Origin: a virus
Length of the DNA: 22,389 nucleotides
IMG/VR virus record: IMGVR_UViG_3300028025_000957
Location: 1-22,389 of that record
Strand: one strand, 5' to 3'
Below the pieces are notes generated by a model, which worked only from the letters and a program-made list of their open reading frames with translations, ran no database searches and was not told the DNA's origin. A program made the position numbers and the translations under genes. Below, piece by piece: positions 9,331-19,550 of this stretch. Each line of letters begins with the position of its first letter. Position 1 is the first letter of the stretch.

Positions 9331-9924
9331 TTAGGGTGTTCCACCGGCACTGACATCGCCGAGGGTTATTAGGTTACCAGATGAATCCAACGATGCTACG
9401 TTAGTGCCGTTGTAATTGAAGTACAACTTTGTACCGGTTGGTGTTACGTTCCACCCACCTGCGTTTGCAATACTGCCAGCACTTCCAGTTATGTTTTGTA
9501 CTGAAGAAATGTAACTTGTGGCGTTAACAATATCTGTACCGTTGGACACCAAAATAACTTTAGTAGCATTTGCAACTGATATACCCGTCTGCCCGCTTAC
9601 CTTGACTGTGACCTGCCCAGATGACGTGTTGTTGTAGATGAAGTACAGTTTCTTGTTAGCAGGAACAATTAAGTTAGTGCTTGCTCCACCTGTGCCAGTC
9701 AACTCAATGAACATGTTCCTTGCGTTAAGGGTTGTATTTGACGCCCCTTGAGGGATGGTCATTGTGGTGTCCGTACCAGTGGAAACGGCTTGAGTTACGT
9801 AACCAGAAATAGCCTGTTCAATCAGCGTACCAAGGTTCAAGTTGTTGGTCGCACCCCAGTTACCAGCTTGGTCACCCGTGCCTACAAGCTCTAAGGCTAA
9901 ATTGGTTGAGTATGTTGCTGACAT
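9331..9924 (-). CDS. Tail-fibre/virion surface protein
   Basis: A 197-residue protein. The N-terminal block MSATYSTNLALELVGTGDQA, followed by GNWGATNNLNLGTLIEQAISGY, is a very common module in aquatic-phage fibre proteins. The middle is beta-rich (NLIVPANKKLYFIYNNTSSG and QVTVKVSGQTGISV). The C-terminus, KLYFNYNGTNVASLDSSGNL, resembles the attachment repeat of fibres that normally continue into a chaperone or tip. Here it simply stops at GDVSAGGTP, so this may be a shortened fibre. GAGG precedes the ATG. Confidence 0.75.
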   Translation of the reverse strand: MSATYSTNLALELVGTGDQAGNWGATNNLNLGTLIEQAISGYVTQAVSTGTDTTMTIPQGASNTTLNARNMFIELTGTGGASTNLIVPANKKLYFIYNNTSSGQVTVKVSGQTGISVANATKVILVSNGTDIVNATSYISSVQNITGSAGSIANAGGWNVTPTGTKLYFNYNGTNVASLDSSGNLITLGDVSAGGTP

Positions 9925-9932
9925 GTTCTACC

Positions 9933-10769
9933 TCATTGTGAGTTGTTTATGGTTGTCCAGACAACTGTCTGTGCATCAATAATCTTAATCCAGCCTGATA
10001 CAGCTTGATTATCCGCCATGACAACGTTTTCAGCAATCGCCGCCTTGAACTGAGCAAGGATTGTTATGACATCCGCTGGACTGAAGTTCTCCGCTATGGT
10101 TTGCACAAATGCGGACTGCTGAGTGCTGGAGTCAGCGGAAGTTAACGCCTCTGTAATACTAAACAAAATTACTAAACCGGCAAGATAGTCCGCTTCGGAA
10201 GTTAAGTCTTCTGTCAAGCTCACCGCAAACTGTGCGGCAATCGTAGGGGCGTCTTCACTTGTTAGGGCTTCGGTGATTGCCGATTGGAACTGCGCTGTGA
10301 TAGCCAGTACATCCAAGTCCGTGGTGTCTTCTGTAATAGAAGAGGCAAACTGAGCGGCTATGGCCTGCGCGTTATCCGCACTGAAGTTTTCTGTAATGGT
10401 TTGTAATACCGCTAAAAAAGACACCACAACATCTGTCACCGTTGTATCTTCAGACTGGGATACGGCAAACTGAGCGGCTATTGTTGGGGTGTCAGCGGGG
10501 GTGTAGTTCTCTGCTATGGTTTGAAGGAACGCGGACTGCTGAGTGCTCGAATCGTCAAAAGTAAAACTCTCAACCACACCAGCAAAGAAGTTACCACCTA
10601 CGTCGTTGTCAACGTCATCTACAACTATATTTTCGGCGATTAAGTTAAATAGTACTTGTGATTGGGTGCTGAAATCCGCCATGCCAATGTTTTCCGCCAC
10701 GGAAAACGAAAAGGCGTTGTTTGCTTGAGAAGCAAAAGGTGTTACGCCAAGGGAAGGTATCCCAAACAT
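9933..10769 (-). CDS. Acidic 20-residue-repeat protein of the fibre cluster
   Basis: A 278-residue protein built from 12 tandem units anchored on a glutamate at residues 26, 46, 67, 87, 107, 127, 147, 167, 187, 207, 227 and 247. The spacing is 20 residues everywhere except one 21. Consensus: F-x-x-x-I-[AT]-E-[ND]-x-[ST]-x-x-D, then a small/Gln-rich stretch, for example QTIAENFSPADVITILAQF. The protein has no arginine and only two lysines (both C-terminal), so it is strongly acidic. A 20-residue period with alternating hydrophobic positions suggests a solenoid, but the fold is unknown to me. It ends with VSGWIKIIDAQTVVWTTINN, a possible cap. The ATG overlaps the stop of the S74 fibre gene (TAATG). 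Fibre or adhesion role is inferred from context. Confidence 0.8.
   Translation of the reverse strand: MFGIPSLGVTPFASQANNAFSFSVAENIGMADFSTQSQVLFNLIAENIVVDDVDNDVGGNFFAGVVESFTFDDSSTQQSAFLQTIAENYTPADTPTIAAQFAVSQSEDTTVTDVVVSFLAVLQTITENFSADNAQAIAAQFASSITEDTTDLDVLAITAQFQSAITEALTSEDAPTIAAQFAVSLTEDLTSEADYLAGLVILFSITEALTSADSSTQQSAFVQTIAENFSPADVITILAQFKAAIAENVVMADNQAVSGWIKIIDAQTVVWTTINNSQ
9996..10706 (-). repeat. Tandem 60-bp coding repeats (20-residue units)
   Basis: Twelve units of 60 bp (one of 63 bp) lie inside the acidic repeat gene. Some are near-identical at DNA level, for example plus-strand GCGGACTGCTGAGTGCT at 10111 and 10531, and CAAACTGAGCGGCTAT at two other units, which points to recent duplication. 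Confidence 0.85.
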
Positions 10770-12388
10770 TACTTCTCCAGCGCAGCTAATCGCGCCTCAA
10801 GAGCCACAACCCGTTCAGCTAACTTAATAGCCGCAACGAGAGCCGCGCCACCGTAGTTCACAGACAAAGTGCCGTCTTCGCCAGCAATAACCGCTTGCTC
10901 TAAAACTTTTTGAAGGGACTGAGCACCAACACCAACCTCGGTAGTTTCAAAGTCTGTACGATCAAAAATACCGTTTTTAACGCCAGCCAACTGTTCAACA
11001 AAGTCGGGGGCAACATCGCGCCAATTAGTCTTTAGCCGCTCATCTGAAGACGCTGAAAACACCGTAGCAGACATAGTGCCCGTACTTGGGTTGTAGGTAA
11101 GTTTGGTGCTCGAGACTTTTATTGAGGTGAGAGACCCAGATGTGGCTGTAGCAAAAGTTGGATAGTAGGTAGCGGCTGTAGTAGTGTCATCCGATATGGT
11201 TGCGCCAGCCGCCGCTTGGAATGTAGGTAACGCACTTGCGCCATTAGAAGTCAGCACCTGCCCAGCCGTACCAACACCAGCAATAGATTGATACGCACCA
11301 GTGGAAGTAGTTCCACCACAAAGCACAGCGTATGCTGTCTGAGTAGTAGCGCCTGTGCCGCCGTTTGCAACGGGCAAAGTACCCGTGACGTTGCTTGCTA
11401 AATTGCAGTATGTTGTTGATGTTGACCCGGTACCACCAGCCGCCACAGGTAAAGTACCAGCCGCAAGAGCAGAAGCAGAAGTGGAATAGAGAGCGCCGTT
11501 AGCCGCAGTAAAGGTTGTTAAGCCTGTGCCACCGTAGCCTGTAGGAATAGTTCCGCCGTTCCACGTACCGTTTGTGATAACCGTAGTACCAAGGTTAAGA
11601 GCGTTAGTACCCCAAGTCACTGCTTCTGGCAAGAATCCGTGGACATCCCATGTACCAGCAGTTGTGCCGTTAGATAGCAATACAAGTTCAACCGCACCGC
11701 CAGCGGTGATAGTGCCAATAGCGCCAGTAGCGTAGTCTTGCAATGTCAGTGTGCCAGTAGCGTTGTTGTTGAACACAAACGCCACACCTGTAGTCAAAGT
11801 AGTAGCGTCAGGCATCGTATAGGTCTGGTTGCCCGTGCCGTTTAATGTCTGTGAATAACTAGAAGCCGCTGTTAACGCAGTTGTACCGCCCGCTGCTGAG
11901 ACAGAAGAGTTTGATTGATTAAGCCTGTTTACATCTACGTTCTGGTTGGCATCGCGCAACATTACCGAAGTTGCGCCAGAAGAAGCGGTTACACCTGTGC
12001 CACCATAAGCCACGCCTATGGTTGTGCCTTGCCAAGTAGCGGAAGATATAGTGCCTAGGGCGCTTACGTTACCCGACGCATCTTCATATACAGCACGACC
12101 AGATGGGTAAGTAACAAAGATGTTGCAAGTGCCACTAAAAGTAACCGCGCTTCCAGAGTTACTAGAAGCGTAGACGGTCGTACGCGTGAGCGTAGGCCCC
12201 GTAGTAGAGTACGTGCCCAGACCAACTTCCCAGTTACCAGAAGCATCAGTAGCCGCGTAGTACGTCGTATTGGTATTACCAATAACAGCGAATGTCTGAA
12301 AGCCAGCAGCCGCACCAGTAAGCGTGAAACTTACAGTGGTGTTAGCCGTACCCGTTTCTTGAACACGGTTTTCTAGAACGAGAGCCAT
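10769..12388 (-). CDS. Tail fibre with C-terminal S74 intramolecular chaperone domain
   Basis: A 539-residue fibre. Residues 1-105 are a conserved N-terminal beta domain (VQETGTANTTVSFTLTGAAA and FVTYPSGRAVYED). Residues 110-440 are shaft-like, with repeated GGTG units such as LPVAAGGTGST and LPVANGGTGATT. Residues from about 448 are an S74 chaperone: SDERLKTNW holds the conserved S-D-x-R-x-K cleavage motif, followed by GVGAQSLQKVLEQAV and the terminal coiled coil AERVVALEARLAALEK. In this family the chaperone trimerises the fibre and cuts itself off at the serine. AAGGAG lies upstream. This is the best supported host-recognition fibre in the window. Confidence 0.92.
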   Translation of the reverse strand: MALVLENRVQETGTANTTVSFTLTGAAAGFQTFAVIGNTNTTYYAATDASGNWEVGLGTYSTTGPTLTRTTVYASSNSGSAVTFSGTCNIFVTYPSGRAVYEDASGNVSALGTISSATWQGTTIGVAYGGTGVTASSGATSVMLRDANQNVDVNRLNQSNSSVSAAGGTTALTAASSYSQTLNGTGNQTYTMPDATTLTTGVAFVFNNNATGTLTLQDYATGAIGTITAGGAVELVLLSNGTTAGTWDVHGFLPEAVTWGTNALNLGTTVITNGTWNGGTIPTGYGGTGLTTFTAANGALYSTSASALAAGTLPVAAGGTGSTSTTYCNLASNVTGTLPVANGGTGATTQTAYAVLCGGTTSTGAYQSIAGVGTAGQVLTSNGASALPTFQAAAGATISDDTTTAATYYPTFATATSGSLTSIKVSSTKLTYNPSTGTMSATVFSASSDERLKTNWRDVAPDFVEQLAGVKNGIFDRTDFETTEVGVGAQSLQKVLEQAVIAGEDGTLSVNYGGAALVAAIKLAERVVALEARLAALEK

Positions 12389-13013: not shown

Positions 13014-13457
13014 TTAAGAGATGCGGATGATTGCAGACGTGTTAGTGACTGCGGGGAATTGTACAGTGAATGTACTCGTAGAGGTCTTATCTGAACCAAA
13101 GTCAAGCACGCATACTGCGGGGTTTGTTGTACCGTTATCCAAGTAAATCAATGCACCTCTTGCGGTGATTGAGCCTGTCCATGCGGCGTTTGTAAAAGAT
13201 AAATAGGCTGTAGCCATTCCAGTTTGGTTACCGATCGTGGGGACTTGAGAAACTGCCAGAGTCTGCCCCCCTGCCGCGTAATTTCCACCTGATGCCTCAC
13301 CTGTGCTTGTGTAAGCCGTGGTCGTAGCATCTAACGTAGCCGCGTTGGTATACAACGCAATCTTGTAGACCTGTGTTGTGCCAGTACCAAAATCAAACGT
13401 GCCATCAAGCAAGCCAACTAAGAACGTATTGGTAGTGAAGTTACCCGTGAACGCCAT
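13014..13457 (-). CDS. Small beta-rich structural protein
   Basis: A 147-residue protein of almost pure strand/turn composition: FLVGLLDGTFDFGTGTTQVY, IALYTNAATLDATTTAYTST, ARGALIYLDNGTTNPAVCVL and STFTVQFPAVTNTSAIIRIS. It has one lysine in the first third and few charges. The pattern is that of a single jelly-roll or Ig-like domain, which I recall as a common unannotated aquatic-phage family beside the adaptor gene. The ATG overlaps the adaptor stop by one base (TAATG), so production is coupled to the adaptor. Confidence 0.7.
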   Translation of the reverse strand: MAFTGNFTTNTFLVGLLDGTFDFGTGTTQVYKIALYTNAATLDATTTAYTSTGEASGGNYAAGGQTLAVSQVPTIGNQTGMATAYLSFTNAAWTGSITARGALIYLDNGTTNPAVCVLDFGSDKTSTSTFTVQFPAVTNTSAIIRIS

Positions 13458-14185
13458 TATTGAACCCCGTTATTCTGAGGTAGCGGAGCCACACGAGCCT
13501 GACCAGAGCGATAAGCATCGCTACGCTCCAGACCATCACCGAGGCGTTTAGCAAGTGCAAGGGCTTCCTTGTACTTACCATCATATAAAGCCATCATGTC
13601 TGTCTCACCCTTCATGTAGGTGTACGCCTCAACCAGTGAGCCGTATAACAGAACAGTATCGAAGTTATCGCCCAGCCAAGTCTGACCGGTTGAAGAAACA
13701 GTAATAGATACAGGATAGTAGTAATAGTGCAGTTCTACTGTGTAAGAAGAGTCTGGGGTCGGTCCAACCATGAATGAGAGTTCATTGGTGATTGTGCCGC
13801 TACCGTTAACAGTTGGCCCAAACAGTGCGTAGTATTTAGGAATCCCAGTATCTGTTGTTGGGTTGGGGTATGCCTGACGAATGAAGTTCACGTCCTTATT
13901 CAACAAATACTCATACGCACCGGTAGCATCGACTACAGCTAAAGAGTAGGTGGACAAGAAGTCATCAGGGCAAGACAAATATTTATTGGTAGATGTCAAA
14001 TTGCCTACTACGTTTTTACGTAACGACGGAAACTGAACAGAGTTGTATATACGCTGTTCAGCTTGAGTAATAAAGCGATTCAGTTGAGTCGTTGAAGACA
14101 CAACAGTGTTGTCCGCCAAAGTGGTAGACGGAAACGTATTTTCTGTATACGTTTGAATCGCTGTTATTAGTTCCGTGTAGGTCAC
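13457..14185 (-). CDS. Head-tail adaptor protein (SU10 / P22 gp4-like)
   Basis: A 242-residue protein. The N-terminal helices, TYTELITAIQTYTENTFPST and LNRFITQAEQRIYNSVQFPS, match the helical core of podovirus adaptors that dock on the portal. A beta insertion follows (ELSFMVGPTPDSSYTVELHY), then a C-terminal helical return (LLYGSLVEAYTYMKGETDMM and YDGKYKEALALAKRLGDGLE) that is highly typical of the family. I chose GTG at 14185 because it overlaps the previous TGA (GTGA), has AGAGGA about 8 nt upstream and gives the usual M-T-Y-T-E-L start. A GTG at 14203 would add six residues. The portal partner is outside the window. Confidence 0.85.
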   Translation of the reverse strand: MTYTELITAIQTYTENTFPSTTLADNTVVSSTTQLNRFITQAEQRIYNSVQFPSLRKNVVGNLTSTNKYLSCPDDFLSTYSLAVVDATGAYEYLLNKDVNFIRQAYPNPTTDTGIPKYYALFGPTVNGSGTITNELSFMVGPTPDSSYTVELHYYYYPVSITVSSTGQTWLGDNFDTVLLYGSLVEAYTYMKGETDMMALYDGKYKEALALAKRLGDGLERSDAYRSGQARVAPLPQNNGVQ

Positions 14186-14460
14186 GCCATCGGTCCTCTG
14201 CACATAACGCCCTTAGTAGCCGCGCCCGTACCACGCATCTTGATGCCGGTAGTTTTGACGTTAGTGTTAGCTGGGTTGCCACCACTTACACGACGAGCGG
14301 GCATACCACCGGGTGTGGACTCACTAGCAGACATACTGTTAGGGTCAGTCTTGTACCCAATATCAGAACCTACAGCCTTACCAGACATATCGTGTGGTTG
14401 CGCGTAGACGCTGGCAGAACCAACTTCTTTGCCGCCTTGTTTCATGCTGAATTTAGCCAT
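14182..14460 (-). CDS. Small Gly-rich phage protein with C-terminal GxxTKG-type motif
   Basis: A 92-residue protein starting MAKFSMKQGGKEVGSASVYA, with a low-complexity middle and a C-terminus TGIKMRGTGAATKGVMCRGP. The end is reminiscent of the tag on neighbouring proteins (A-x-x-G-K-T-K-G, then M-C) but clearly diverged, so common origin is only suggested. I recall the KFSMKxGGKEVG...RGTGAATKG family as widespread and uncharacterised. I chose the ATG at 14460 because GGAGG lies 6 nt upstream. An upstream in-frame start at 14493 would overlap the 59-aa gene. Confidence 0.7.
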   Translation of the reverse strand: MAKFSMKQGGKEVGSASVYAQPHDMSGKAVGSDIGYKTDPNSMSASESTPGGMPARRVSGGNPANTNVKTTGIKMRGTGAATKGVMCRGPMA

Positions 14461-14650: not shown

Positions 14651-15079
14651 CTAAGTTGTTGCTACCGTAACTGTACCTAATTGCACCGATAAAGCCAAGT
14701 TATTTGGCGTCAATGACGCATCAAAACTGCTTGACCCGCCTACTGGTGCCCAACCCCATTGGAAGATTCGGCTACCACCTTCATTTGTCCCAGTACCACT
14801 TTGTGTAGTACCACCACTCACATTCGTCTGCAATCCACTGTTGCCAGAAATTATGTAACTTCTGTCGGGGCGAGGATTCCTCAAAGCCTGTGGGTCGTCC
14901 ACAGGGAACATACCCAACTGCAACTGCGGATGATCTGGGTCCCAACACTCTGGGCATACCAGCAAATTGTAGTTCTTTAACTTGATAATCTCAGTCTTCA
15001 GAACCTTCAACTTGAACCGCTGACCACAGCGGTCACACTCCGAAATCGCATATTTGCCAGAAGCAAAACGATTACCCAT
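14651..15079 (-). CDS. Zinc-ribbon phage structural protein
   Basis: A 142-residue protein. The N-terminus MGNRFASGKYAISECDRCGQ carries Cys15 and Cys18, and LLVCPECWDPDHPQLQLGMF carries Cys42 and Cys45. The two C-x-x-C pairs make a four-cysteine zinc ribbon. VDDPQALRNPRPDRSYI follows, and the C-terminal 60 residues are Gly/Ser/Thr-rich beta sequence. This N-terminus is one I recall as highly conserved in aquatic phages, without a known job. Genes on both sides are virion-like, so a structural or assembly role is likelier than transcriptional control. Zinc binding itself is inferred from the cysteines. Confidence 0.8.
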   Translation of the reverse strand: MGNRFASGKYAISECDRCGQRFKLKVLKTEIIKLKNYNLLVCPECWDPDHPQLQLGMFPVDDPQALRNPRPDRSYIISGNSGLQTNVSGGTTQSGTGTNEGGSRIFQWGWAPVGGSSSFDASLTPNNLALSVQLGTVTVATT

Positions 15080-15639
15080 TAGAGAACCCTGCCTCTCGTT
15101 CTACCTCTTGCAGCAATCCCATCCGCACGGCTAGAAGCAGTTACTTTACCGCCTCTCTTTAGCATTGGTTTGTTATTCTCTTCTTCAATACGTTGCTCAA
15201 GCCGTAATTGCTTAACTTTACTCTGTTCATCACGTTGATTACGGTCAACCGCTGACCTCGCCCCTGCTTCACCGGCAAGATTTTTAGTGGCTCTTTCTGC
15301 CGAGTTTACTAAAGCGTTATCCATCATATAACTATTAGTGGCTCTTTCAGCTTGTTTTTTAGCTTCTTGTCTTTCAGCTTGACTAGTGCCCCAACCGACG
15401 TTCTTCCATACACTATCTGGAGCAATCCCAGACCCTATTTCTGGGGTTTCTATTGTTCTAGTAGTCGGTCTTTTGGTAGCACTTTTCAACGCCGTATAAC
15501 CAGCCCTAGCTGGCGCAATCAATAAACCTTCTAAAGTCGTATCAGGCTCAATAGCTTGTTCTTTTTCTTTTAGCCGTTTCCAAGCCTCGGACCCATGCGG
15601 TGGGTGCTTTTCTAATACAGATTTATATTTGGTAGCCAT
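15079..15639 (-). CDS. Basic helical protein with C-terminal SRADGIA tag
   Basis: A 186-residue protein. The N-terminus, ATKYKSVLEKHPPHGSEAWK, and long charged helices (SQAERQEAKKQAERATNSYM and DEQSKVKQLRLEQRIEEENN) precede a short Gly-containing linker (MLKRGGKVT) and the 19-residue tag ASSRADGIAARGRTRGRVL, here with Arg replacing Lys. The body is unlike the other tagged proteins, so the tag behaves as an independent module. GGGAGG precedes the ATG. It is followed by the zinc-ribbon gene with a TAATG overlap. Function is unknown; a virion-internal role is a guess. Confidence 0.75.
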   Translation of the reverse strand: MATKYKSVLEKHPPHGSEAWKRLKEKEQAIEPDTTLEGLLIAPARAGYTALKSATKRPTTRTIETPEIGSGIAPDSVWKNVGWGTSQAERQEAKKQAERATNSYMMDNALVNSAERATKNLAGEAGARSAVDRNQRDEQSKVKQLRLEQRIEEENNKPMLKRGGKVTASSRADGIAARGRTRGRVL

Positions 15640-17057: not shown

Positions 17058-17329
17058 TCTCGGTAACCCCCACCTGCCGCCTTGTACTTCTTGGCTACAA
17101 GTTGGGCTTTGCGTGCTGACCATTGTCCTGCACCTGTGCCCTGCGTTGCTGCGGCTTTTACTTGAGACACAATCCGCTTACGCAGTTCGGGTTTTGTGTA
17201 ATTGTTAGCGGCGTTAACTTTTCCACCTTCAGCGTATTGTGTGAAGTCGGTGTCATCCCTTCGGGCAGTTCTCTTACCCTTGGGCATCTTGGAGGGGTTG
17301 ATGTCCCCCATACCCCGACTTGACATCAT
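17054..17329 (-). CDS. Small phage protein with QWSARKAQLxAKKYK domain (DUF5872-like)
   Basis: A 91-residue protein with a short basic N-terminus (MMSSRGMGDINPSKMPKGKR), an AEGGKVNAA linker, and a helical C-terminal domain YTKPELRKRIVSQVKAAATQ followed by GAGQWSARKAQLVAKKYKAA and GGGYRD. The P-G/A-x-W-S-A-R-K-A-Q-L...Y-x-x-x-G-G-G-Y pattern is one I associate with DUF5872, a domain recalled from both phages and giant eukaryotic viruses. The exact family name is from memory. No enzymatic residues are evident. It overlaps the previous stop by 4 nt (ATGATG start), preceded by AAGGG. Confidence 0.75.
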   Translation of the reverse strand: MMSSRGMGDINPSKMPKGKRTARRDDTDFTQYAEGGKVNAANNYTKPELRKRIVSQVKAAATQGTGAGQWSARKAQLVAKKYKAAGGGYRD

Positions 17330-17706
17330 TTTTTACCCTTTGTGTAGCCACCGCCACACATTACCATAGTGCCTTTGGTCTTACCACGTTGGGCGCAACC
17401 ATCGGCACGGGAAGAAGCAGTCATGCCGCCTTTAGCGTAGAGTTCGCCAGCTTTTACACGCTTATCAAACTCGTTAGACATATTCTTACGCAGTTGGTCA
17501 ACAGTAACGCCTTTATTTTTGGCGTGGGCTTCAGCACGGGCGTTTTGAAGCGCGTCTAAATCGTTTTTAGGTTTAGCGTAACCTTCAGCCTTTAAAGGCT
17601 TACCATCAACGCGAATATCACTGCCGGGTTCTTGAGCCTTTACTTTCCCTTTGGGGATTGGCTCATCCACCGGAGTGGAGTCTTCGTATTTATAGTCTTT
17701 AGCCAT
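17326..17706 (-). CDS. Basic low-complexity protein with SRADGCA tag
   Basis: A 126-residue protein. The N-terminus MAKDYKYEDSTPVDEPIPKG is disordered. A helical centre follows (KPKNDLDALQNARAEAHAKN and KGVTVDQLRKNMSNEFDKRV), then AKGGMT and the tag ASSRADGCAQRGKTKGTMVM, with a short extra end CGGGYTKGKK. Compared with its paralogous tags, Ile is replaced by Cys and the sequence continues 11 residues past the usual end. I chose ATG 17706 because AAGGA lies about 10 nt upstream. A GTG at 17715 would be too close to it. Function is unknown. Confidence 0.75.
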   Translation of the reverse strand: MAKDYKYEDSTPVDEPIPKGKVKAQEPGSDIRVDGKPLKAEGYAKPKNDLDALQNARAEAHAKNKGVTVDQLRKNMSNEFDKRVKAGELYAKGGMTASSRADGCAQRGKTKGTMVMCGGGYTKGKK

Positions 17707-17708
17707 GA

Positions 17709-18449
17709 TTAGCACATCCTTCCTTTGGTCTTGCCTTTTTGAGCAATACCATCGGCACGGCTTGAAGCGGAGGAGACTTTACCGCCAGAAGCCATCTTCT
17801 TGACTGCGCCACCTTTTTTGAAGCCGTCTTCACTACCACGGGGGCGTATAGGGACGTTAAATGCACCAGCGAGGTTACGAACGCGGTCAACTTCAGAAGT
17901 ATCACGCTCCATGCCTGTGGGGGCACGAGACACATAGTTACGCATACCTTCTTCGGTAGTGCTGTTGGCTTGTGGTGTACGACGTGGTACATAGTTACGC
18001 ATACCTTCAGCAGTCGTACTGTCTGCTTGTGGTTGGGTTGGCATAGTTACACCACGACCAGCGCCAGCCATTGAAGTTGTACGAGTACCACGACTCATAC
18101 CAGCCTCAGCATTACGAGGATCACGGGGACGAGTGCCACGACTCATACCAGCTTCATCGTCAGCAGAAATAGTAGACCTAGAACTGGGAGCGGTTGCGCG
18201 TGCGCGTGAAACGGTTGGCTTACTTGCTGCTGAAGGCTTTGTATCCCAACCCGGTTCTTTTTCTGAACCAAAGTCTGGCCCACCGGGTTCCTTCTCAGAC
18301 ATGCCAGTATCTCTACGTGGTAAGTCCTTGATACCTTCAAAGCCACCGGTATCCATACCAGATGTGTCCGAACCCTTTTTACCTTTGGACAGCATCATGC
18401 CCAAGGCTCCAAGAGCGGCTAATCCTGCTAAATCTTTTCCTCTTGCCAT
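17709..18449 (-). CDS. Repeat-containing basic protein with SRADGIA tag
   Basis: A 246-residue protein. Residues 5-20 are a hydrophobic, Ala/Leu-rich N-terminal helix (KDLAGLAALGALGMML). The middle is disordered and contains two pairs of internal repeats: AGMSRGTR at residues 100 and 116, and QADSTTAEGMRNYV / QANSTTEEGMRNYV at residues 141 and 160. The end reads KKMASGGKVSS and then the tag ASSRADGIAQKGKTKGRMC (residues 228-246). The hydrophobic N-terminus could be a membrane or assembly anchor. AAGGAG precedes the ATG. The low-complexity body with a conserved tail argues that the tail is the part under constraint. Confidence 0.75.
   Translation of the reverse strand: MARGKDLAGLAALGALGMMLSKGKKGSDTSGMDTGGFEGIKDLPRRDTGMSEKEPGGPDFGSEKEPGWDTKPSAASKPTVSRARATAPSSRSTISADDEAGMSRGTRPRDPRNAEAGMSRGTRTTSMAGAGRGVTMPTQPQADSTTAEGMRNYVPRRTPQANSTTEEGMRNYVSRAPTGMERDTSEVDRVRNLAGAFNVPIRPRGSEDGFKKGGAVKKMASGGKVSSASSRADGIAQKGKTKGRMC
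17931..18155 (-). repeat. Two pairs of internal direct repeats in the 246-aa tagged protein gene
   Basis: One pair has a period of 57 bp (17931-18029, encoding QAxSTTxEGMRNYV). The other has a period of 48 bp (18081-18155, encoding EAGMSRGTR). Both are nearly conserved at the DNA level, showing recent local duplication in the disordered part of the protein. Confidence 0.8.
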
Positions 18450-18459
18450 GATGTGCTCC

Positions 18460-19053
18460 TTAGCAATATTTTTTAGTCATTCCGCCTTTTTTCATGGCGG
18501 GGCCGGTACCAATTTTGTTACCAGCCATTTTAGGCATCATGCCCTTGGTTTTGCCCTTAGAGGCTACACCATCTTTGCTAGGGGCGGCAGTTTTAACTTT
18601 GCCCATGCTAGAAGCAGCCATGCCACCAGAAGCCATCTTCTTCATGGGCATACCGCCTTTTTTCATACCTGCCATGTCGGTATTAGCCATAGGAGTAGGC
18701 TTTTTCATGCCGTCCTTAGCGGTACTCATACCGGCCTTCATTGTTGGCTTGCCCATTGCTGAAGGCTTTGCGTCCTTCTTCTTAGCCATCATTGCCATAA
18801 ATCCGGGGTTCATTTTTGTAGCCATACGGCCTCCTTGTTTAAAAAGTGCCATTGCGCCATGATCGGTCTTTGGCTGGTTTACTACTTGGCGATCTGCTCT
18901 AGTGCCACTGCCACCAGAGCCAAACTTCATTCCCTTACTCTTGTCACTGAACTCAGCGCCAACAGACTGGGGTACACCCACTTTCTTGGCAAACCCTTTG
19001 TTATGGGCTACCGCGTCCATGAATTTCTTTTGTTTCTCACTCACCGCTGGCAT
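18460..19053 (-). CDS. Met/Lys/Gly-rich protein with diverged tag
   Basis: A 197-residue protein. The N-terminus, MPAVSEKQKKFMDAVAHNKG followed by FAKKVGVPQSVGAEF, is a compact conserved block that I recall from many small phage proteins and that resembles DUF3008-type sequences. From residue 70 on, the chain is made of Lys, Met, Gly, Ala and Pro (for example KKGGMPMKKMASGGMAASSM), with more than 20 methionines. A diverged tag, PSKDGVASKGKTKGMMPK, lies about 40 residues before the end, which is MKKGGMTKKYC. The protein is very basic, suggesting nucleic-acid contact. It overlaps the holin candidate by 17 nt. A moderate AAGGGG precedes the ATG. Confidence 0.75.
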   Translation of the reverse strand: MPAVSEKQKKFMDAVAHNKGFAKKVGVPQSVGAEFSDKSKGMKFGSGGSGTRADRQVVNQPKTDHGAMALFKQGGRMATKMNPGFMAMMAKKKDAKPSAMGKPTMKAGMSTAKDGMKKPTPMANTDMAGMKKGGMPMKKMASGGMAASSMGKVKTAAPSKDGVASKGKTKGMMPKMAGNKIGTGPAMKKGGMTKKYC

Positions 19054-19235: not shown

Positions 19236-19550
19236 TCAGCACATCCTGCCTTTAGTCTTACCCTTTTGGGCTATACCATCTGCGGAGTTCACATATCCAC
19301 CATCAGCGCAGTTCCACGCTCTAAGACTCTTGTTAATCCTAGAGTTCGGGTCGTTCGCTGTTTTTGCGGATGTCAATTTCTTTTTCATCCCACTCATACG
19401 GGCGCAGAAAGAGTCGCGCCTTGAGCCGCCCTCTGGTTGCGGCGGTTTCAAGTTCATCCCTTGCTTTTTCGCGGAGGCTCGCCCCTTGGCGTTCAAGCCA
19501 CCCTTCTCCGATTTGCCTTCTTTTCTCTGCCATGCGGGGGATTTAGCCAT
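19236..19550 (-). CDS. Basic phage protein with ADGIA tag (KSPAWQRKEGKS family)
   Basis: A 104-residue protein. The start, MAKSPAWQRKEGKSEKGGLN, followed by AKGRASAKKQGMNLKPPQ, is a conserved N-terminus I recall from many aquatic phages. The centre has SRRDSFCARMSGMKKKLTSA. The C-terminus is CADGGYVNSADGIAQKGKTK then GRMC, which is the shared tag without its usual Ser-Arg. The overall composition is strongly basic. Its first 8 nt overlap the end of the preceding beta-rich gene and no clear Shine-Dalgarno is seen, so coupling is likely. No function is known to me; a DNA-associated virion protein is possible. Confidence 0.75.
   Translation of the reverse strand: MAKSPAWQRKEGKSEKGGLNAKGRASAKKQGMNLKPPQPEGGSRRDSFCARMSGMKKKLTSAKTANDPNSRINKSLRAWNCADGGYVNSADGIAQKGKTKGRMC

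Follow-up and report, generated by a model that had tools for sequence, protein, structure and literature searches.

What is the role of a strictly periodic and strongly acidic protein in the fibre gene cluster of a virus, and what determines the number of its repeats? The locus lies in IMG/VR record IMGVR_UViG_3300028025_000957, of which a stretch of 22,389 nucleotides was analysed (positions 1 to 22,389, hereafter the window); its features are collected in Table 1. The twelve 20-residue units initially described for this reading frame are borne out by our data: each unit carries a glutamate (residues 26, 46, 67, 87, 107, 127, 147, 167, 187, 207, 227 and 247), and the self-identity of the protein at lags of 20 and 40 residues (0.25 and 0.26) exceeds the maximum of 0.17 reached over lags 2-60 in 2000 shuffles. 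The spacing is as exact as had been claimed, 20 residues in all of the 11 intervals except the second, which has 21. As to the two acidic residues said to stand in fixed places, this holds for the glutamate in 12 of 12 units and for the aspartate at +6 in 10 of 12, the aspartate being one residue off in units 6 and 9. The protein contains no arginine, two lysines, 21 aspartates and 14 glutamates, and its net charge of -33 is by far the most negative among the 15 window proteins compared. Against three relatives (L002-L004), which are 72-79% identical in amino acids and keep 11-12 of the 12 glutamate anchors, dN/dS is about 0.15-0.17. The gene is genuine and under purifying selection.

Table 1. 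Coordinates of the features of the window.
Feature	Position	Strand	Description
Downstream gene	9331..9924	-	197 aa; phrog_31104
Repeat-rod gene	9933..10769	-	278 aa; start codon ATG at 10769, last base of the stop at 9933; twelve 20-residue units
C-terminal tail	9936..9995	-	residues 259-278; GWIKIIDAQ and one 11-residue Trp repeat
Rod	9996..10718	-	residues 18-258; 12 units, pattern F-x-x-S-I-T-E-N-I-T-x-A-D
N-terminal cap	10719..10769	-	residues 1-17, MFGIPSLGVTPFASQAN; family consensus MFGxSxFAQxPFASLAG
S74 fibre	10769..12388	-	539 aa; Pfam PF13884 above cut-off (Peptidase_S74 intramolecular chaperone); PHROG tail fiber
SU10-type portal adaptor	13457..14203	-	Pfam PF24175, 85.9 bits (cut-off 27)
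Small head-region ORF	15079-15639	-	SSRADGIAQKGKTKGRMC-like motif
Small head-region ORF	17326-17715	-	SSRADGIAQKGKTKGRMC-like motif
Small head-region ORF	17709-18449	-	SSRADGIAQKGKTKGRMC-like motif
Small head-region ORF	18460-19053	-	SSRADGIAQKGKTKGRMC-like motif
Small head-region ORF	19236-19550	-	SSRADGIAQKGKTKGRMC-like motif

The position of the periodic protein inside a fibre gene cluster is likewise confirmed, with fibre-type neighbours on both sides. The S74 fibre gene is located upstream, its stop overlapping the start of the repeat gene by one base, and homologs of this fibre are present in 88 of the relatives' loci. In 110 of 117 relatives the repeat gene is followed immediately by a homolog of the gene for the 197-residue protein, whose counterparts in isolated phages carry the annotation tail fibre, tail spike or tail protein. 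The genes for head and tail in the window are those of a podovirus-like phage, and the SU10-type adaptor points to a podovirus-like context of the virion genes. The MCP of the window shares 71% identity with its counterpart in Planktothrix phage Pag-Yong1 and 64% with the one in Pelagibacter phage HTVC023P.

The protein search of IMG/VR returned 18 loci, the four nearest being 72-78% identical to the window protein, and each profile search hit between 198 and 341 loci, of which the top 80 were retained; by these profile searches the relatives in IMG/VR number several hundred. None was confirmed in a scan of 84,980 bacterial and archaeal genomes. A tblastn search of 50,697 phage records, in which the low-complexity filter may hide some members, gave no protein with 20-residue units at normal thresholds and a single match at E=5. 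Sequence searches of Pfam, NCBIfam and the PDB with the repeat protein yielded no family match, only chance-level or marginal ones, and the matches in PHROG were marginal. A keyword search of the papers on HTVC023P, HTVC027P and CRP-901 (PMC9599517, PMC12753301, PMC10149686) found no mention of the repeat protein. The protein is a real, conserved and undescribed one from the tail-fibre cluster of aquatic viruses of bacteria; the family is large, occurs commonly in the aquatic-phage contigs of IMG/VR, and is absent from the protein-family libraries that were searched.

All members share a strongly conserved cap, from whose consensus the window's own cap deviates at several positions, and the 20-residue units; nearly all have a tail with GWxKI and a Trp every 11 residues. 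Among 1057 units the glutamate is present in 98%, Asp(+6) in 81%, Phe(-6) in 78%, Ser(-3) in 62% and Ile/Val/Leu(-2) in about 80%. The strong acidity is general: in 87 non-redundant members Asp amounts to 6.2%, Glu to 5.7%, Arg to 0.9% and Lys to 0.5% of the residues. The zero arginines and two lysines stressed in the preliminary description are correct for the window protein, but they are not a family trait, given that only 5 of these 87 members lack arginine and 7 lack lysine. The hydrophobic positions of the unit are -6 (F), -2 (I), +2 (I/L) and +4 (L), and the polar or small ones are -3, -1, +1, +3 and +5; such an alternation from -6 to +5 suggests that the units form beta strands.

A different rod occupies the same slot in HTVC023P, 023Pt_psg01, HTVC027P and DSL-LC04, where the gene just upstream of the homolog of the 197-residue fibre gene encodes a tandem-repeat protein with VTG-type units (HTVC023P gp68, DSL-LC04 WJZ48131, 023Pt_psg01 URG13121, HTVC027P gp68), annotated in each case as a hypothetical protein. 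Common to this type and the window family are the slot, the tandem repeats and a Trp-containing tail, and the 11-residue Trp spacing is also found in the tails of HTVC023P and DSL-LC04. A cap like that of the window family is present in HTVC023P and its close relatives (of the MLGITALSQSPIASLGG or MAFGITTFAESPFAATGS kind in HTVC023P and metagenomic relatives), whereas the N-terminus of DSL-LC04 and HTVC027P is of another, WG-rich kind. The shared cap pattern is (M)[FL]GIxxx[AS]QxP[FI]ASLxG, to which the window family conforms at the level of a cap profile. When 3557 ORFs were searched with a profile of the window-family cap, the top five matches were the N-termini of syntenic 22-residue-repeat proteins, at E-values that are individually weak (0.008 to 1.1), the cap being only 17 residues long. 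The units themselves differ: in the HTVC023P group they have about 22 residues around VTGxQ with Gly, in the window family 20 residues around ITEN/AD, and a comparison by eye suggests that Gly (VTG) stands in the place of the glutamate. The window protein has a period of 20 and the glutamate instead of the 22-residue VTGxQ unit, and is, judged from the sequence, a variant of this rod type and not a member of it. A related cap and Trp tail thus enclose units of either 20 or 22 residues, so that one slot of the tail cluster holds a cap-rod-tail protein and accepts two unrelated-looking kinds of rod. This slot is empty in the isolate relatives Pag-Yong1 and CRP-901, so that the wider group can do without the protein. 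The lengths of the 22-residue rods correspond to about 8, 9 and 11 units, without the steps of four that are seen in the window family. In the HTVC023P-type proteins L184 and L185-L252 the intervals are mostly 22 residues, one central interval is often 24, and the two main length classes lie 66 residues apart.

The C-terminal tails of the window family combine a rigid spacing with a variable content. Of 363 Trp intervals, 357 measure 11 residues. Compared with L002, L003, L004 and L006, the window protein and L005 lack one of the 11-residue Trp repeats, and all of these proteins have 12 rod units. In 119 tails the Trp count is 2, 3, 4 or 6 and never 5. In L013 (5899-7788) the series of 11-residue Trp repeats is interrupted by an insert of about 300 residues, which on visual inspection looks like a beta-propeller-type sequence and has no match in Pfam, PHROG or the PDB. 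In L048 (1887-2888) and L053 (4001-4999) the GW/Trp tail is replaced by an unrelated C-terminus of about 60 residues, which gave no database match.

The number of units is constrained across the family. Among 122 non-redundant proteins with an identifiable GW tail, 12 units were counted in 101, 16 in 10, 8 in 6, 20 in 4 and 17 in one, so that 121 of the 122 have 8, 12, 16 or 20 units and the only exception is L131 with 17. The GW motif, whose position can be read independently of any unit finding, falls at residues 176-178, 256-261, 338-340 and 417, and at 358 in L131. Three length-blind scans with the N-cap only gave the same picture. On a quick tree built from the columns common to all lengths, in which 40 inner branches are poorly supported, parsimony requires about 13 switches of unit number; if only the starred branches are counted, the 12-unit state must still have changed six times. 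Losses occurred independently in L014, in L135 and in the clade of L016, L017, L341 and L350, and gains in several clades. The common view is that repeat arrays change by single units. A total that is almost always 8, 12, 16 or 20 suggests, as far as sequences can tell, that the length of the rod is fixed by selection and is not free to drift. The comparison of repeat number proposed in the preliminary description therefore gives a divided answer: close relatives are invariant at 12, and distant lineages do differ, by multiples of four.

One would argue that the totals in fours arise from copying of four-unit blocks. We reject this explanation, because the internal duplications visible in some members span one or two units, the break points are scattered and no period of four units is seen in the similarity between units. 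In several long members the best-matching neighbours lie one or two units apart, for example in L262 (0.80 at distance 2), L011 (0.75 at distance 2) and L168 (0.72 at distance 1). One-residue insertions are found mostly at intervals 2 and 6, that is four units apart, which is suggestive at most.

We consider it probable (roughly 0.6) that the protein serves as a structural fibre or rod in a podovirus-like particle related to HTVC023P and Pag-Yong1, with a shaft length selected in steps of four units. The architecture, conservation, synteny, the two rod types found in one slot of related phages and the unit counts described above are observed directly; from them we infer a location in the virion, a beta structure, an oligomeric state, the distal end and the reason for the steps of four. 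The N-terminal cap would dock onto the tail or a neighbouring fibre, the twelve beta-rich units of 20 residues would form a rigid acidic and probably oligomeric shaft, and the 11-residue Trp repeats would form or carry the distal tip. Phage fibres usually combine a conserved N-terminus with a variable C-terminal end, and we take the C-terminal end of this protein as distal because it is the variable one, in the number of Trp repeats, the insert of L013 and the replaced tails of L048 and L053. Fibrous shafts of viral attachment proteins such as the adenovirus triple beta-spiral and the T4 gp5 triple beta-helix are likewise built of short beta-type repeats in tandem, flanked by an N-terminal anchor and a C-terminal end; the window rod differs from them in its 20-residue unit with Glu and Asp and has no sequence match in the PDB. 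To our knowledge, there is no virion proteomics for this family.

The allowed shaft lengths would step by four units (about 80 residues), and the simplest cause that we can offer for the counts is that four units return the rod to register with its base or partner. If, for example, each unit turned the rod by 90 degrees, or by 30 degrees in a trimer, only whole turns would align the tip with the base or with a second fibre. We propose, tentatively, that selection keeps the number of copies at multiples of four though units come and go singly or in pairs, and that the four-unit helical register acts as a molecular ruler. If true, this ruler would be legible from sequence alone, and it would offer direct access to the pitch of an unsolved viral rod and to the factors that set the length of podovirus appendages.

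The fixed acidic positions could alternatively serve to bind metal: ladders of Glu(0) and Asp(+6) in a beta-solenoid would bind Ca2+ and lend the shaft stiffness, in the manner of RTX-type rolls. The frequency of these residues in the 1057 units, the acidic chain with almost no lysine or arginine and the extreme net charge of the window protein are in line with this possibility, and the Ca2+-binding beta-roll of RTX proteins is built from acidic periodic repeats too. However, the window units have a period of 20 instead of the GGxGxDxUx nonapeptide and gave no Pfam match above cut-off, nor did known metal-binding repeats match. Additionally, the apparent replacement of Glu by Gly in the syntenic 22-residue family, seen by eye, implies that the slot needs no acid. 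Thus we find metal binding unlikely as the explanation of the repeats.

Less likely still is a flexible and largely disordered acidic linker or coat protein, whose period would be kept by loose binding motifs. The composition is of low complexity, and two AlphaFold2 monomer runs gave models almost without secondary structure: the full window protein reached a pLDDT of 39.7 (61 alignment rows) and a very regular eight-unit fragment of L131 reached 52.3 (121 rows). The absence of a confident model comes near to the disordered chain that the preliminary description had set against its own proposal of a solenoid. However, low-confidence monomer models are common for obligate oligomeric fibres, and the low confidence here is not evidence of disorder because the protein is possibly an obligate oligomer. 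The strongly kept hydrophobic positions (-6 and -2), the near-exact spacing and the constrained total length also speak against disorder, all three being unusual for it. The earlier interpretation of the repeat protein is partly supported.

It could also be that the counts in fours are an accident of sampling or ancestry. The pattern was noticed post hoc, the starred branches force only six changes and the quick tree contains many weakly supported inner branches. On the other hand, losses and gains are independent in several lineages and the length-blind scans agree. By our own estimate, with a chance of 1/4 that a step is a multiple of four, 12 of 13 such steps have a probability of about 6e-7 and 5 of 6 a probability of about 0.005. 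We regard an accident as decidedly improbable.

Finally, the preliminary description expected that the repeat number may vary between close relatives and so make the protein a candidate length or host-range variable element; slippage would then tune the fibre or its hosts rapidly. Lineages do differ in unit number, and similar neighbouring units exist in L131 and in some 16- and 20-unit members, but this idea is very improbable, as about 83% of the 122 members have exactly 12 units and the five relatives at at least 60% identity to the window protein all have 12, which contradicts it for the window's own clade. The similarity between units at the DNA level that had been invoked is weak as well: their identity averages about 40% with a best pair of 68%, in the 101 genes with 12 units the mean is 44% and none exceeds 75%, and Tandem Repeats Finder did not report the repeat gene as an array in the window. 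Easy slippage is unlikely because this identity is too low, and the combination of high unit identity with copy change among close relatives, characteristic of slippage-prone tandem DNA, is absent.

Two observations concern other parts of the window and its relatives. A short motif like SSRADGIAQKGKTKGRMC, rich in Lys and Gly, recurs at the C-terminus or internally in five different small ORFs of the head region. The records OQ594354.1, OL906435.1 and PP438419.1 (named for the hosts Synechococcus, Planktothrix and Planktothricoides) have the same length of 65,014 and the same match identity, and may be one phage deposited three times.
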